Positions 32,972 through 39,648 of a DNA stretch of 64,000 bases are shown piece by piece; position 1 is the stretch's first letter; each line of letters opens with the position of its first letter. This DNA is from Acidobacteriota bacterium (lineage in GTDB: Bacteria > Acidobacteriota > Vicinamibacteria > Vicinamibacterales > UBA823). Made by a program: the position numbers and the translations under genes. Under the pieces are notes generated by a model, which saw nothing but the letters and a program-made list of their open reading frames with translations, did no database searches and was not told the origin of the DNA. The stretch lies in assembly GCA_002730735.1 (NCBI GenBank), contig PCAU01000001.1, positions 272,925-336,924 of the forward strand. Direction: 5' to 3'.

Positions 32972-34612
32972 CTAGGACCGGAGCCGCTTTTTCTCTGAAG
33001 CCCGTTCAGCTTGGAGACGTTCGAGGTCCACGGCCGAATGATCAGCGAATCGCATCGCGGCCGCGATAGCCCGGTGACCTGCCTTTTCGGCAATTAGTCG
33101 ATGCATTGCTTGACAGACACGTCGATACGCTGGATGTCCCTGCGGGGCACTCCTGAGCTCAATCACGTGCATGGCTTCTCGCGCGTTCATGTGCATGTAA
33201 AAGCGGATACGGTATGCCATGGCGACTGCATACGGTGCCACCGCGCCGAGGGTCGCCTTCTGCAGAGCTTCGTGTAGCTCAACCGATGACTCCATGACCT
33301 GCCGCCAGTCGGCAAGGGCACCGGCTTCTTCGATTGCTGCTGGTTCGTTGAAGCCGTGGTCGGTTGTCAGATCCTGCCATTCAATGCTGAGCAAACGATG
33401 TCTTTGGAGATCGCGAAATGCGCCGTAGTCCGATAGCACATCGAAACGGTAACCAGTGCGCTCAAATGCGCGGCCCGGCTTATGGCGGCGGTTTGTCCTG
33501 GCGCCGATGTAGGCTTTTAAGATTGACGCCCGCTCGCTGGCCGACATCTGCCTCGCCATGGCGAGTAGCTGAGAATCTGGCAGGTTTGACACCGCATAGA
33601 GTGCGGCAGCGACCACTTTGACCTCGCCGTCTGGATCAAAATCGACCAACGACACCTCATCTCGTAGTTGGGGGTCGATGTCAGCCAATACGGTCATTGA
33701 TGTTTGTTTTAGGTCAGTCTGCGTAGTGCTTAGATAGTCGCTCCACAGAACGCCTCGGTTGGGCAGGTCAACACGTGTCAGGAACGCAGGGATCACCTTG
33801 CGCAGTTCAATTAGCATCATCTCCGCATATCGCTGCATCTCGGTCAGTGGATGTGCGCGCATTTGTAGAAGCAATCTTTCATATGCCTGCCCAGACCCGA
33901 AAATGCCCACGTTGGATTGCGTTGCCGCCGGTAAGAGGCCACGTAATGTATCAAGGGCCTTCGCACGGATCGCTGCCCGGTAGACACCGTCCGAATCCTC
34001 TGGATCCTTCGGATGCTTGGCCTTGTAGTAATCCTGCATCGGTTCGATCCACCGGTTATAAATTTCGAAAGCGCGATCGAGGGTCCGGACGTACTGAGCG
34101 CGCAGTGTCGTCCCGTTAAGTTCTTCCGGGATTAAGTATTTCCAGTGGCCTTGCGGGCGGTCGGTGTAGGGTATGTAGCGTGTTGATTGTTCGAGATACG
34201 CTGCGAGCCTACCCCGCTCCAGCACCTTCGTTAGGAGGTTTGAGGCACCCTCACAGGCGATGTGCGCCCCGCCCAACTGAGCGACCGAGTCATCGCCGTA
34301 CTCGTGGAAAACGCGTGTGTAGAGTCGCTCGGCACGCTCGACGCCAACATCTGGCGCCTGACGGTCGGCTCCGGAAACTTTGTCGGTGAATTCATCGAGA
34401 AACAGTCGACGCAGCGATTTTGCGGATCGCGAGTATCGGGCAAAGAGTGCTCCCTTGACGACGTCCGGTAAATTTGTCAGCGCGAACACTGGTCCCTCGA
34501 GATTCGTGAAATACGGTTCGAGGAGCCGTCGTTCCTCTGGGGTGAATGATTCGGCAGATGGGCGTTCGTCGGGCACGCCGTATAATAGTCGGGCGGTGCG
34601 AGGTTCCGTCAA
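32972..34612 (-). CDS. Duplicated ThyX-like (FAD-dependent thymidylate synthase) protein
   Basis: A 546-residue protein that looks like two fused ThyX domains, about residues 40-290 and 300-530; a normal ThyX is about 220-250. Domain 1 has VLERGRLAAYLEQSTRYIPY, which fits the ThyX motif RHRx7S except that the His is Gly. Domain 2 has LQRHRLLSIEWQDL, with RHR intact but the final Ser replaced by Asp. ThyX makes dTMP using methylene-folate and FAD with active sites between subunits, so the two halves might complement each other or the protein might have another role. The start is TTG at 34612 preceded by GGAGGAAGGAAGG. It diverges from the thioesterase gene with 25 bp between starts. Confidence 0.78.
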   Translation of the reverse strand: MTEPRTARLLYGVPDERPSAESFTPEERRLLEPYFTNLEGPVFALTNLPDVVKGALFARYSRSAKSLRRLFLDEFTDKVSGADRQAPDVGVERAERLYTRVFHEYGDDSVAQLGGAHIACEGASNLLTKVLERGRLAAYLEQSTRYIPYTDRPQGHWKYLIPEELNGTTLRAQYVRTLDRAFEIYNRWIEPMQDYYKAKHPKDPEDSDGVYRAAIRAKALDTLRGLLPAATQSNVGIFGSGQAYERLLLQMRAHPLTEMQRYAEMMLIELRKVIPAFLTRVDLPNRGVLWSDYLSTTQTDLKQTSMTVLADIDPQLRDEVSLVDFDPDGEVKVVAAALYAVSNLPDSQLLAMARQMSASERASILKAYIGARTNRRHKPGRAFERTGYRFDVLSDYGAFRDLQRHRLLSIEWQDLTTDHGFNEPAAIEEAGALADWRQVMESSVELHEALQKATLGAVAPYAVAMAYRIRFYMHMNAREAMHVIELRSAPQGHPAYRRVCQAMHRLIAEKAGHRAIAAAMRFADHSAVDLERLQAERASEKKRLRS

Positions 34613-34637
34613 CCTTCCTTCCTCCCCGCGCTAGGTC

Positions 34638-35072
34638 ATGGGTAGTAGCTTTCATCACTCAATCGACGTCAGGTTTCGAGATTGTGATGAGTTTGGCCAC
34701 GTGAACAACGCGGTTTACTTCACTTACCTCGAAGAAGCACGCTGGGTGTTTTTACGCCACTTGCAGGGCCGGTCCCGCGATCACGGCTTGACCGATAGCG
34801 ACAGAGTGCCGAAGCAGCCGGGAACGATCCTGGCGCACGCCGAATGTGACTTCCGATCGGAGGCTAAGTATGGTGACGTCCTTGATGTGTTGGTGAAGGT
34901 TTCCGCAGTTGGGCGTTCGAGTTTCAGTTACGAATACGAGGTCATCGAAAAATCGAGCAGCCGACTGATAGCAACAGCGAAATCCGTGCAGGTGTCCTAC
35001 GACGCCGTAGCCAAACGGCCGGTCCCCATTCCCAATGCATTACGCGTTGTACTCGAGGAAACGTTACGGTGA
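34638..35072 (+). CDS. Hotdog-fold acyl-CoA thioesterase (YbgC/FadM-like)
   Basis: A 144-residue thioesterase of the 4-hydroxybenzoyl-CoA thioesterase group. FRDCDEFGHVNNAVYFTYLEEAR holds the catalytic Asp and the substrate-pocket residues of this family. AHAECDFRSEAKYGDVLDV and SFSYEYEV complete the fold. It hydrolyses acyl-CoA esters; chain preference is unknown. The start ATG 34638 is preceded by a weak TAGGT. TATAAT at 34581-34586, inside the start of the divergent ThyX-like gene, is a possible promoter. The selenoprotein-like gene begins 25 bp downstream on the same strand. Confidence 0.88.
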   Translation: MGSSFHHSIDVRFRDCDEFGHVNNAVYFTYLEEARWVFLRHLQGRSRDHGLTDSDRVPKQPGTILAHAECDFRSEAKYGDVLDVLVKVSAVGRSSFSYEYEVIEKSSSRLIATAKSVQVSYDAVAKRPVPIPNALRVVLEETLR

Positions 35073-35096
35073 TTCCGCAAGAGAGGAATGAGTAGC

Positions 35097-35321
35097 ATGA
35101 ATCAGATCGTCTACATCTTCGGCAAAGACACGTGACCTTATACCACTGCTGCCCGTGAGGACTATGCCAAGCGGAACATTGAGGTCGATTATGTCAACGT
35201 TAAGGAGGACGCTGACGGGTTGCGTCGCATGCTGGAGTACACTGGCGGTCGACGTAAGGTTCCAGTGATTGTTGAGAATGACACGGTCACGACAGGATTT
35301 GGCGGCACATGAGGGGTATGA
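35097..35321 (+). CDS. Glutaredoxin-like selenoprotein with two in-frame UGA (UXX-star type)
   Basis: Reading from ATG 35097 gives 12 residues, TGA at 35133-35135, 58 residues, TGA at 35310-35312, Gly-Val, then TGA at 35319-35321: 74 residues if both internal TGA encode selenocysteine. The N terminus MNQIVYIFGKDT-U-PYTTAARE puts the first TGA where glutaredoxins have the first active-site Cys. RRKVPVIVEND carries the cis-proline of the thioredoxin fold and VTTGFGG replaces the usual C-terminal GG loop. The end is U-G-V-stop, which fits what I recall of the UXX-star small selenoprotein families. AGAGGA lies nine bases before the ATG. The coding quality is continuous across the first TGA, unlike a decaying gene. 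The sequence shows the codons; selenocysteine insertion is inferred. Confidence 0.8.
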
Positions 35322-35339
35322 TGGCTGCCGGTGGCAGCT
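35310..35339 (+). promoter_or_regulatory. SECIS-like hairpin after the second in-frame UGA
   Basis: Six perfect pairs, GCTGCC (35324-35329) with GGCAGC (35333-35338), plus a flanking G-T pair, close on the triplet GGT at 35330-35332. Counting the UGA as bases 1-3, the loop GU lies at 22-23; in the E. coli fdhF SECIS the essential GU is at 23-24. The bulged U of the E. coli element is not reproduced. The first UGA (35133) also has GU at 23-24 but only a weak CC/GG stem around it. Confidence 0.5.
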
Positions 35340-35653
35340 TTATTATTGGGCGCCGAAGGGATTAAACGGTGCGTGTCTCTGTCAGTCAAGATTGACAGCT
35401 GGCGCGCGCGGCACGATAATTGCCGCTCGGAATCTCGGACCGTCGTAATTATCCTCAGTTGGGAGTCAGGCGCTTTTGTTCTTCAGTCGCATTTTTTCGA
35501 TCCGCAAGGCGTCGTCGTTTACCCTGTTCACTCAGCATTAGTTCTTCCGCCTACGTCGTTACTCTTCTCAGTCATCTCATTCTGCTTCATAAGCTCGGGG
35601 TTCCACTTCCATTCTGTGCTAGTGAATCCCGGTTTGTTTCATGACGAGGTGGT
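35322..35653. other. Non-coding gap after the selenoprotein gene
   Basis: About 330 bp holding the SECIS-like hairpin at its left end. Open frames here lack any recognisable motif or ribosome site and are rich in unusual residue runs. No terminator with a T-run and no RNA gene is seen. The right end supplies GAGGTGG for the MBL gene. Confidence 0.55.
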
Positions 35654-36454
35654 ATGCACTATGAGCTGATTCCTGCGCACAACCCCGGGTCCTACACCGG
35701 GTCTGGTAACAATACCTATCTCCTTAACGGAAAATCACCTGTGCTGATTGATGCGGGCACCGGTGATTCTCGGCATGTTACAGGCGTCGCCGACGCGTTA
35801 GTGCAGTCGCCGAGCACTTCGCTAACGAAGGTTCTCGTGACTCATGGGCACGCCGACCACGCTTCCGGCATTAGCGCACTCATGACAAGGTGGCCAGAGG
35901 TTGTGGCCGCTAAGATGCCTTGGCCGGAACGCGACGATCGCTATTCGGTGTTCTGGACTCCAATCGCCGACGGTGATTTGATCCCAGCCGGTGATACAAC
36001 ACTCCAGGCTGTGCACACGCCAGGTCATGCGCCAGACCATCTGTGCTTCTTGGATAGCACTTCCAGGGTTTTATTTACTGGCGACCTTGTGGTTAGCGGA
36101 AGTACCGTGATGATTCCAGGAAGTTCCGGGGGCGACCTAGTCGCATATCTCGCGTCACTTCAGCGCGTGCTTTCGCTCAAGCCAACCCGGCTGCTCCCGG
36201 CGCATGGGCCCGCAATTGACGATCCAGTAACTCTTGTGCGGCACTACCTTGATCATCGCCAATCGCGTGAAGATCAAATCTTGGCGGCAATCCGAGCCGG
36301 TATTGACACAGTGGACGGGCTAGTGTCGCGTGTCTATGGGTTTCTGGAGCCGCAACTCATTCCGGCAGCTCATGAAAGCGTTTTGGCACATCTAAAGAAG
36401 CTCCGCGTCGAAGATCGAATCCAAACCGACGCGAACCGTTGGACATCGACCTAA
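35654..36454 (+). CDS. MBL-fold metallo-hydrolase, LACTB2-like
   Basis: A 266-residue protein. NPGSYTGSGNNTYLL and PVLIDAGTGD form the start, THGHADHASG the metal-binding HxHxDH motif near residue 64, VHTPGHAPDHLCF the third His, FTGDLVV the bridging Asp, and LPAHGPAI the last His. The C-terminal winged-helix-like part (residues about 205-265) is shared with LACTB2, an RNA endonuclease, and with related hydrolases. The substrate may thus be RNA or a small ester. GAGGTGGT before the ATG fixes the start. The dipeptidase gene follows by 44 bp and may be co-transcribed. Confidence 0.87.
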   Translation: MHYELIPAHNPGSYTGSGNNTYLLNGKSPVLIDAGTGDSRHVTGVADALVQSPSTSLTKVLVTHGHADHASGISALMTRWPEVVAAKMPWPERDDRYSVFWTPIADGDLIPAGDTTLQAVHTPGHAPDHLCFLDSTSRVLFTGDLVVSGSTVMIPGSSGGDLVAYLASLQRVLSLKPTRLLPAHGPAIDDPVTLVRHYLDHRQSREDQILAAIRAGIDTVDGLVSRVYGFLEPQLIPAAHESVLAHLKKLRVEDRIQTDANRWTST

Positions 36455-36498
36455 GGTTGTTTGTCCGCTGTTGACTGAACGGCATCACGAAGGTCTAT

Positions 36499-37902
36499 AT
36501 GAACACCATCATCGATTTTATTCACACGAACCGAGATCGTTACATTGACGAGTTGAAAGCCTACCTAGCGATTCCAAGTATCAGCGCGTTACCCGAGCAC
36601 GCTGCGGACGTAAGACGCTGTGCAGAATGGACGGCGGAAGAAATGCAACGGGTCGGCTTGGATCACGTTCAGCTTTACGAGACACCCGGCAATCCGATCG
36701 TTTGCGGAGAATGGTTGAAGGCTGAGGGTGCGCCCACCATTCTTTATTACGGACACTACGACGTCCAACCAGTCGACCCGCTAGAGCTTTGGGAATCGCC
36801 GCCTTTTGAAGCCACGGTGCGAAGTGGCGAGATCTATGCGCGTGGCGCAGCCGACGACAAAGGCCAGGTGTTCATGCACCTTAAGGCGATCGAGGCGCAC
36901 CTGAGACAAACCTCTAGGTTGCCGGTGAACATGAAGATCGTTCTAGAGGGTGAAGAGGAGGTTGGTAGCGAGAACCTTGATGCCTTCATCCGCGATCGGC
37001 GTGATGAGTTGTCCGCCGACGTGGTCGTAATTTCCGATTCCCCGATGTTCGATCGCGGCGTACCGTCCATTTGTTACGGTCTCCGAGGACTCACGTATTT
37101 CCAGATTGACCTCCGTGGTACGGCGAGCGACTTACACTCTGGCTCGTTCGGTGGTGCGGTTGCCAATCCGGCTTTCGTATTGAGCCAGGTGCTCGCACAG
37201 ATGAAAGACCGCGGCGGTCGGGTGAAGGTCCCAGGCTTCTATGATGCTGTACGTCCGTTGCGAGAGGAAGAGCGTGCCGAATTCAAGAAACTACCGTTCA
37301 ACGAAAAGCATTACCGCAAGGAAATAGGGGCACCCAAATTGTTTGGCGAGAGGGATTACACAACGCTCGAACGTGTATGGGCTAGGCCGACGTTCGAAGT
37401 CAATGGTCTTCAGTCGGGCTTCACTGGTGATGGAGCTAAGACTGTTATTCCGGCGACCGCGACGGCGAAGGTAAGTATGCGGCTTGTGCCGGATCAGGAG
37501 CCTGATACGATCGCCGAACAGTTTGAGGACTATCTTCGCAAAGTTACGCCGAAGACGGTTACGTTAGCCGTTACACGCATGCATGGTGGGAGGCCTTGGA
37601 TGACCGAATTTGACAATCCTTATGTGCAGGCCGCCGCCCGTGCGGTCGAGCGAGGCTTCGGACAACAACCTGTGTTTAACCGTGAAGGTGGTTCGATTCC
37701 GGTCGTGGCGACTTTCCAGGAGGTGCTTGATCTACCATCGGTGCTGTTTGGGATTGGCCTACCAGACGAAAATGCACACGCGCCAAATGAAAGATTGGAT
37801 CTCGGTAATTTTTTTAACGGCATCATTGCCTCAGCTTGTTTGTACGATGAGATTGGCCAGCTAACTGGTCACGCGGCAACCGCGGAATCGGGTGGTGGAT
37901 GA
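36499..37902 (+). CDS. M20 family metallo-dipeptidase
   Basis: A 467-residue peptidase. YYGHYDVQPVDP holds the first zinc His and catalytic Asp, GAADDKGQ the bridging Asp, LEGEEEVGSENL the catalytic Glu and zinc Glu, VISDSPMF the next Asp, and the distal His is in DENAHAPNERL. Residues about 200-370 form the dimerisation lid, beginning RGLTYFQIDLRGTASDLHSGSFGG. This layout is that of the carnosinase-like CNDP group, cleaving dipeptides in the cytosol. No signal peptide is present. GAAGGTCTAT precedes the ATG. Confidence 0.93.
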   Translation: MNTIIDFIHTNRDRYIDELKAYLAIPSISALPEHAADVRRCAEWTAEEMQRVGLDHVQLYETPGNPIVCGEWLKAEGAPTILYYGHYDVQPVDPLELWESPPFEATVRSGEIYARGAADDKGQVFMHLKAIEAHLRQTSRLPVNMKIVLEGEEEVGSENLDAFIRDRRDELSADVVVISDSPMFDRGVPSICYGLRGLTYFQIDLRGTASDLHSGSFGGAVANPAFVLSQVLAQMKDRGGRVKVPGFYDAVRPLREEERAEFKKLPFNEKHYRKEIGAPKLFGERDYTTLERVWARPTFEVNGLQSGFTGDGAKTVIPATATAKVSMRLVPDQEPDTIAEQFEDYLRKVTPKTVTLAVTRMHGGRPWMTEFDNPYVQAAARAVERGFGQQPVFNREGGSIPVVATFQEVLDLPSVLFGIGLPDENAHAPNERLDLGNFFNGIIASACLYDEIGQLTGHAATAESGGG

Positions 37903-38115: not shown

Positions 38116-39000
38116 TTAGTTCAAACTTGCCACTCGCCTTCGCAACATCTTGATGTGTTCCCAGATCTGCTCGTGTTCCGTCTGGCGATCCACTGGGACG
38201 TCACCGTTTCTGGTTCGCCCCGTAATGTGCAGGTATGCTTCGAGGTCTCTCAGGGCGCCCGAGAAGTCTCGCAGGTGATAGGCCAGCAAGCCACGGTCGC
38301 GAAGATCGACGGCGCCAGATGGTTTAATGGCGAGGAGTAATTCAGTCACGTCACGCGCCTGTGGGAAAGAACGTAACCTGACGTACATTCGTTTCAAGTT
38401 TTCGAGGACTCGGACGATGATCTGTTTATCACTTGCCGGCTTGAGAAGTCGAAGGTCGAATTCGGCGTCGTCACCGAGATGTTGGTGGAGTAGTTCACGG
38501 CAGTCACCCTCGGCCATTATCCTGCCGTTATTGGATGGGTCGATGACAAGTGGCATCTGTTTCCACTCCGATGATTCCGCTTGTAATCGTACTAGGAAGT
38601 GACTTGGAAAATTGACTCCCGCCGCACGAACTCCAGCTCGTTGAGCCACTTCAAGGAAGACAATCCCTAGTGTTACCGGAATGCCTGTCCGTCGATCGAG
38701 CACCTGATTCAGACAACTGTTTCTGGGATCTTCGTTGTCTGCAGGGTTGCTAGTAAAGCCCCGCTCCCGAAACAGGTAACGGCTGAGGATTTCGAACTGC
38801 GCTTGCTGAGTTTTGCCATCTCCGTCCGCTAGCCGCTTCCGTGCCTCGCTACCCATGCGGTCAAGACACTCGAGGGATGGCGTGGGGTTGAGGTGCGGGT
38901 GTTCGAGCCTGGCGATGAGCAGTGCTGCGCGTGCGAGGTCTGGAGCTTGGCCGCTGACCGTGTCAGCAAACTCGCGCGCCAGCTTATCAACATTGATCAT
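38116..39000 (-). CDS. SirB1 family protein with transglutaminase-like and TPR regions
   Basis: A 294-residue protein. The conserved core is SCLNQVLDRRTGIPVTLGIVFLEVAQRAGV followed by GVNFPSHFLVR, the SirB1/DUF transglutaminase-like fold with Cys and His positions. Residues about 195-285 form TPR-like helices (VLENLKRMYVRLRSF, RDRGLLAYHLRDFSGALRDLEAYL). The molecular role of SirB1 proteins is not settled. It is the last gene of a minus-strand run after the TPR protein and DUF1684 lipoprotein, 24 bp downstream of the latter. Confidence 0.85.
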   Translation of the reverse strand: MINVDKLAREFADTVSGQAPDLARAALLIARLEHPHLNPTPSLECLDRMGSEARKRLADGDGKTQQAQFEILSRYLFRERGFTSNPADNEDPRNSCLNQVLDRRTGIPVTLGIVFLEVAQRAGVRAAGVNFPSHFLVRLQAESSEWKQMPLVIDPSNNGRIMAEGDCRELLHQHLGDDAEFDLRLLKPASDKQIIVRVLENLKRMYVRLRSFPQARDVTELLLAIKPSGAVDLRDRGLLAYHLRDFSGALRDLEAYLHITGRTRNGDVPVDRQTEHEQIWEHIKMLRRRVASLN

Positions 39001-39024: not shown

Positions 39025-39648
39025 TTAATTATCCCATTCTCCCGGGAGCCGCTCCCCAGCGAGGACCGCTAATGCCAACTGGTTCTCGAGTGGCGGGAAC
39101 GGGCAGTCGAAGCGCACGTCATAGTAGCAAAATGGGTGATAGGCGGTATTGAAGTCGAGGTCGTAGATTCCCGTTGGTGTCACCACCAGGTCAAGGTAAC
39201 GTCCAGCAGGATAAGTCTCCCTGCCATTCGTCAGATCGCCAAATGGCACGAACAGGCTGTTGTTGTTGGATGCTAAGACTTCGACAAAAGCTGACAGCGT
39301 GACAGGATTTCCCTCGAGTTGAAATTCTAGGACTCCCACGCGGCGCATTGACCTCCGCTTGCCCGTCGATGTGGGGATTTCGAAGATTGTTTGTTCACTG
39401 TCAACGCGGAGCGATGCAGGGATTCGGTAATCGACATCAGGTAAGAAGTAACTTAGTGGAAGAAGGTCTTGACGGCGAGAAACAGGGACTGGGGAATCCG
39501 CACTATTTTCAAACGCCTGGTCCTTGGCTGTCCGCGATGCGAGGAGTGTGTCGACGTAGGACAGATCATCCGGTGGAGGAGCACTACAGGCGCTCACCGC
39601 AATAAGCACGGCCGCACTCCAGGGTGCGGTGGTTGACCCTCTAGTCAT
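39025..39648 (-). CDS. DUF1684 lipoprotein
   Basis: A 207-residue predicted lipoprotein with lipobox region VLIAVSAC near residue 21. The DUF1684 signature is clear: FVPFGDLTNGRETYPAGRYLDL, DFNTAYHPFCYYDVRFDCPFPP and LENQLALAVLAGER. Members are widespread and uncharacterised. This one ends soon after the signature. Its ATG is two bases after the stop of the TPR gene, so the two are in one operon. Confidence 0.88.
   Translation of the reverse strand: MTRGSTTAPWSAAVLIAVSACSAPPPDDLSYVDTLLASRTAKDQAFENSADSPVPVSRRQDLLPLSYFLPDVDYRIPASLRVDSEQTIFEIPTSTGKRRSMRRVGVLEFQLEGNPVTLSAFVEVLASNNNSLFVPFGDLTNGRETYPAGRYLDLVVTPTGIYDLDFNTAYHPFCYYDVRFDCPFPPLENQLALAVLAGERLPGEWDN

Follow-up and report, generated by a model that had tools for sequence, protein, structure and literature searches.

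Positions 35097-35321 of the window, by which we mean the whole 64,000-nucleotide stretch of DNA that was analysed, are a real small-protein gene in which two UGA codons are predicted to be read as selenocysteine (Sec). Standard gene-finders miss this gene because its two UGA 'stop' codons serve for selenocysteine. We are highly confident that the product belongs to UXX-star selenoprotein family 1 and that both Sec residues are encoded; it is an ordinary member of this already described family, with nothing of note to set it apart. Translation with U at TGA gave MNQIVYIFGKDTUPYTTAAREDYAKRNIEVDYVNVKEDADGLRRMLEYTGGRRKVPVIVENDTVTTGFGGTUGV followed by a TGA, such that the in-frame TGAs fall at codons 13, 72 and 75. 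An earlier note on this DNA had claimed a dual-UGA, glutaredoxin-like gene of the UXX-star type, and was correct on each of these points. The translation likewise bore out the T-U-P-Y-T motif with a TGA at the active site, the KVPVIV segment and the G-T-U-G-V-stop ending, all without a frameshift. The short open reading frame broken by two TGAs had thus rightly been picked out by eye as a selenoprotein. The ATG at 35097 was preferred as the start, and an in-frame ATG at 35088 was considered less likely because it lies directly on the AGAGAGGA motif (Table 1). A genome of the same species encodes a protein identical to the product of the window copy.

Table 1 Features of the selenoprotein gene and its surroundings, in window coordinates
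Feature	Position	Strand	Description and basis
UXX-star family 1 selenoprotein gene	35097..35321	+	74 residues, two Sec, UGA stop; translation, profile match, conservation, selection
UGA codon 13	35133..35135	+	Sec at the glutaredoxin active-site nucleophile position, U-P-Y-T; translation, alignment, codon counts
UGA codon 72	35310..35312	+	C-terminal Sec, G-G-T-U-G-V-stop; translation, alignment, codon counts
UGA codon 75	35319..35321	+	Taken as the true stop; TAA or TAG at the same position in 17/61 homologues
AGAGAGGA, purine-rich, probable ribosome-binding site	35080..35087	+	5' of ATG 35097; direct reading, inference
Candidate first SECIS region	35147..35169	+	Inside the coding sequence; GCC CGU GAG signature at codons 19-21, kept in Sec13 forms; codon signature only
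Candidate second SECIS hairpin	35323..35339	+	GGCUGCC-GGU-GGCAGCU, 3' untranslated region; loop starts 17 nt after UGA72
4HBT-type thioesterase, directly upstream	34638..35072	+	Neighbour kept in close relatives only
Metallo-beta-lactamase-fold hydrolase with winged helix, downstream	35654..36454	+	Neighbour kept in close relatives only

Family membership was assigned by profile search. The product, with its Sec at positions 13 and 72, scored 117 bits on NF041114 (NCBIfam, UXX-star selenoprotein family 1; cut-off 72), the alignment spanning profile positions 1-70 of 70. It also exceeded the cut-offs of the subfamily model NF041212 (94.5 versus 66) and of Pfam Glutaredoxin PF00462 (39.1 versus 22.9 bits). 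UXX-star families 2 (NF041211) and 3 (NF047338) and the HUGP/GUXX-star fusion (NF045501) share a homologous glutaredoxin-like domain and a C-terminal Sec motif, but the product scored below the cut-off of each (54.1 versus 100, 45.7 versus 97 and 50.1 versus 325, respectively). All 29 members that we aligned match NF041114. The product carries the family's UxxT motif (U13-P-Y-T16), its two Sec and the C-terminal U-x-x-stop (U72-G-V-stop), and together with the full-length match we found no notable difference from the family. The classical dithiol CxxC is absent and is replaced by UxxT, with T16 invariant in the 29-member alignment. In the table of a 2026 review, UXX-star family 1 is entered as 'Distant Grx-like protein 1' with UxxT and two Sec, citing a 2008 Global Ocean Sampling metagenome study (PMC13188914). 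Dual Sec and the U-x-x-stop ending are therefore known family features; the two selenols in 74 residues pointed out in the earlier note are predicted here, but they are the listed state of the family and not special to this copy.

Read in the standard way, 35097-35321 breaks at two TGA codons, as would a glutaredoxin gene in decay that had acquired two nonsense mutations. We examined this alternative against the distribution of the family and the pattern of selection. Of 396 genomes from this phylum, 44 had a member above the NF041114 cut-off, nearly all with both TGAs in frame, and identical TGA positions recur across dozens of genera. A scan of named genomes, whose patterns demanded Cys at position 13 and are biased to Cys13 forms, added relatives in Acidobacteria, Anaeromyxobacter, 'Deltaproteobacteria', Planctomycetes, Nitrospirae, Pelotomaculum and others. 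The 28 homologues aligned with the window copy (53-72% identical to it) have Cys or Sec at both 13 and 72, and these positions are invariantly Cys/Sec in the 29-member alignment. Among the 61 copies whose C-terminus was scored, all but two had TGA at codon 72 (59 TGA, one TGC, one TCA); codon 13 was TGA in 38 and TGC or TGT in 22 of 61, and was missing from one partial copy. The C-terminal Sec72 therefore appears the more constant of the two, in a sample that is partly Cys13-biased. Two rare relatives (L066, L070) lack the C-terminal Sec and carry Cys (TGC) or Ser (TCA) there; both have Cys13. Homologues of the kind that the earlier note had proposed to look for thus exist; in them residue 13 is Cys or Sec and residue 72 is, with few exceptions, Sec. 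Compared with two genomes of the same family, the gene had dN of ~0.2 with saturated dS and a dominance of third-position differences, and the same purifying pattern (dN ~0.2 versus saturated dS) was seen for codons 14-71, 3' of the first TGA. These observations, and the presence of tRNA-Sec, selA and selD in the genome, make a decaying gene exceedingly improbable. A pseudogene was ruled out because both TGAs are conserved throughout the phylum, residues 13 and 72 are conserved and selection is purifying. The earlier judgement that decay was unlikely is thereby backed: from sequence comparison, chance and decay are both excluded because of the 117-bit match to a curated family, the conservation of 13 and 72 in 28 homologues and a dN far below dS.

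The earlier note had also called for a check of selA, selB, selC and selD. The window's own genome contains a tRNA-Sec (selC; 61.7 bits, over the cut-off, and called SeC by ARAGORN), selA (549 bits; also present in six of six relatives checked) and selD (350 bits). The selD match, which lies outside the window (L019, G000:C1:157627-158553), runs through one in-frame TGA, and SelD of this genome is therefore probably a selenoprotein itself. A selB over the cut-off was found neither in the window's own assembly (61% complete) nor in the same-species assembly (97% complete). In a sister genus selB lies directly 3' of a gene resembling RNase R (named by inspection), and in the same-species genome the RNase R-like gene starts at 38859 on a contig that ends at 39604, which cuts it off. 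The lack of selB in both assemblies of the species is best explained by an assembly gap next to RNase R, because this neighbour of selB in relatives runs into the contig end in the 97% assembly. Absence of the Sec machinery was accordingly rejected, with selA, selC and selD present and the missing selB traced to the gap.

Decoding of UGA as Sec in bacteria involves a SECIS hairpin with its loop ~16-37 bases after the Sec codon. The candidate hairpin for UGA72 begins two bases past the stop codon and had a moderate fold score in the window copy (z = -1.64). In 50 of the 59 members compared, the C-terminal hairpin scored better than shuffled sequences of preserved composition (p < 0.05). Within a sequence its arms were 99% paired, but exchanging arms among members lowered this to 50% (36 distinct arm pairs); the best hairpin was chosen per sequence, which biases the 99% upward, while the shuffle comparison is unbiased. 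We consider the predicted second SECIS hairpin well supported across the family. The candidate first SECIS region folded weakly in the window copy (z = -0.63, not significant), and a search of Rfam over 34500-36500 returned nothing relevant. Codon usage in this region differed with the residue at position 13: codon 19 was GCC in 39/39 Sec13 genes versus 14/23 Cys13 genes and codon 20 was CGT in 32/39 versus 2/23, in counts that ignore relatedness. This would be expected if a SECIS constrained the synonymous sites solely in genes that use Sec.

The position of the second hairpin raised the question of whether UGA75, which lies near it and is used by 44/61 members, is sometimes also read as Sec to give a longer protein. 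Codon 75 was TGA in 44, TAG in 11 and TAA in 6 of the 61 homologues; the presence of TAA or TAG in 17 of them marks it, as judged from these codons, as a stop position. UGA was only modestly more frequent as the stop in the family (44/61) than in large flanking ORFs (93/170), in counts that again ignore relatedness. The hairpin loop in the window is just 8 nt after UGA75 and 17 nt after UGA72, and across the family it lies 14-24 nt from UGA72. Reading downstream of codon 75 gave no protein sequence in common among members, and Sec insertion at UGA75 is, on this evidence, very improbable. One homologue (L033, G389) has a further in-frame TGA three codons past the usual UGA stop (UGVU-PS-U), probably by chance.

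An AlphaFold2 model of the product had a glutaredoxin fold (mean pLDDT 95.1), with the dithiol cGrx1 (7c10) as its top PDB match and BC3987 and NrdH also near. The Clostridium oremlandii Sec glutaredoxin cGrx1 (PDB 7c10, 7c12) shares the fold and the Sec or Cys at the active site; it differs in having a U/CxxC active site, where our product has T16 for the second Cys, and its match ends at the GG region, to which our product adds Sec72. In the model, the U13-P-Y-T16 active site is without a second cysteine and Sec72 comes just after the GG kink. In yeast Grx5 and Chlamydomonas Grx3 a bond forms between CysA and CysC, the latter adjoining the active site and the GG kink (PMC3866529). These monothiol proteins similarly combine an active-site chalcogen with a second beside the GG kink and none at the CysB site, but they use thiols, the second one position earlier (GGC), where our product uses selenols (GGTU).

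We take the product to be a UXX-star family 1 selenoprotein that has a glutaredoxin fold, resides in the cytosol and acts as an oxidoreductase. SelB with charged tRNA-Sec would decode UGA13 with the help of the candidate hairpin within the coding region and UGA72 with that of the hairpin just past the stop codon, while UGA75 would escape recoding and act as a stop because it is too close to the second hairpin. Sec13 occupies the catalytic-cysteine (CysA) site of glutaredoxins, with the invariant T16 at the CysB site, and Sec72 lies near the CysC site, the third cysteine of several glutaredoxins, which is able to bond CysA intramolecularly. In the likeliest scheme, Sec13 would attack a substrate, which may be a disulfide, a selenenyl compound or an organometal(loid), and Sec72 would resolve the Sec13 intermediate as an intramolecular diselenide, replacing the absent second active-site Cys. 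The location of Sec72 after the GG kink, the UxxT motif without a second Cys and the precedent of the CysA-CysC bond make a Sec13-Sec72 couple the likeliest arrangement. We give the diselenide step itself not quite an even chance. The fuller proposal, a selenium CysA-CysC centre in which a 3' UTR SECIS recodes UGA72 and spares the UGA nine bases on, is put forward tentatively, as somewhat short of even. If true, the gene would be a natural test of spacing as the decider between Sec and stop. With two Sec in so compact a protein, and a stop UGA nine bases beyond a Sec UGA, the gene also lends itself to studies of selenol redox chemistry and of how Sec and stop are told apart.

The main rival to the Sec13-Sec72 couple is that, in the same selenoprotein, the two selenols jointly bind a metal or metalloid, for example in mercury or arsenic handling, with no catalytic diselenide. 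The review considers that Sec in UXX-star proteins may be a metal-binding ligand (PMC13188914), and the near-constant Sec at residue 72 fits a ligand in need of selenol affinity. However, no metal-resistance genes lie beside 35097-35321, the neighbours being the thioesterase, the MBL-fold hydrolase and an M20 peptidase, and conserved neighbours vary by lineage. We regard metal binding as unlikely, although a good deal more plausible than decay or recoding of UGA75.

The thioesterase described in the earlier note does lie just upstream, but its ORF ends at 35072, leaving a gap of 24 bp and not the 25 bp given there. The genes flanking 35097-35321 are also found in an Acidobacteria gp6 genome (L065), which suggests an origin of the window in Acidobacteriota. 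A conserved operon partner was rejected, as the thioesterase and the MBL hydrolase are common to close relatives only. Cys13 homologues of groundwater 'Deltaproteobacteria' have an apparent nucleoside-diphosphate kinase downstream, in a rough comparison whose clusters include shadow reading frames. Elsewhere in the neighbourhood, positions 32972-34612 encode a 546-residue ThyX-type (Thy1) protein in which two stretches match the domain and which adjoins a peptide deformylase gene.
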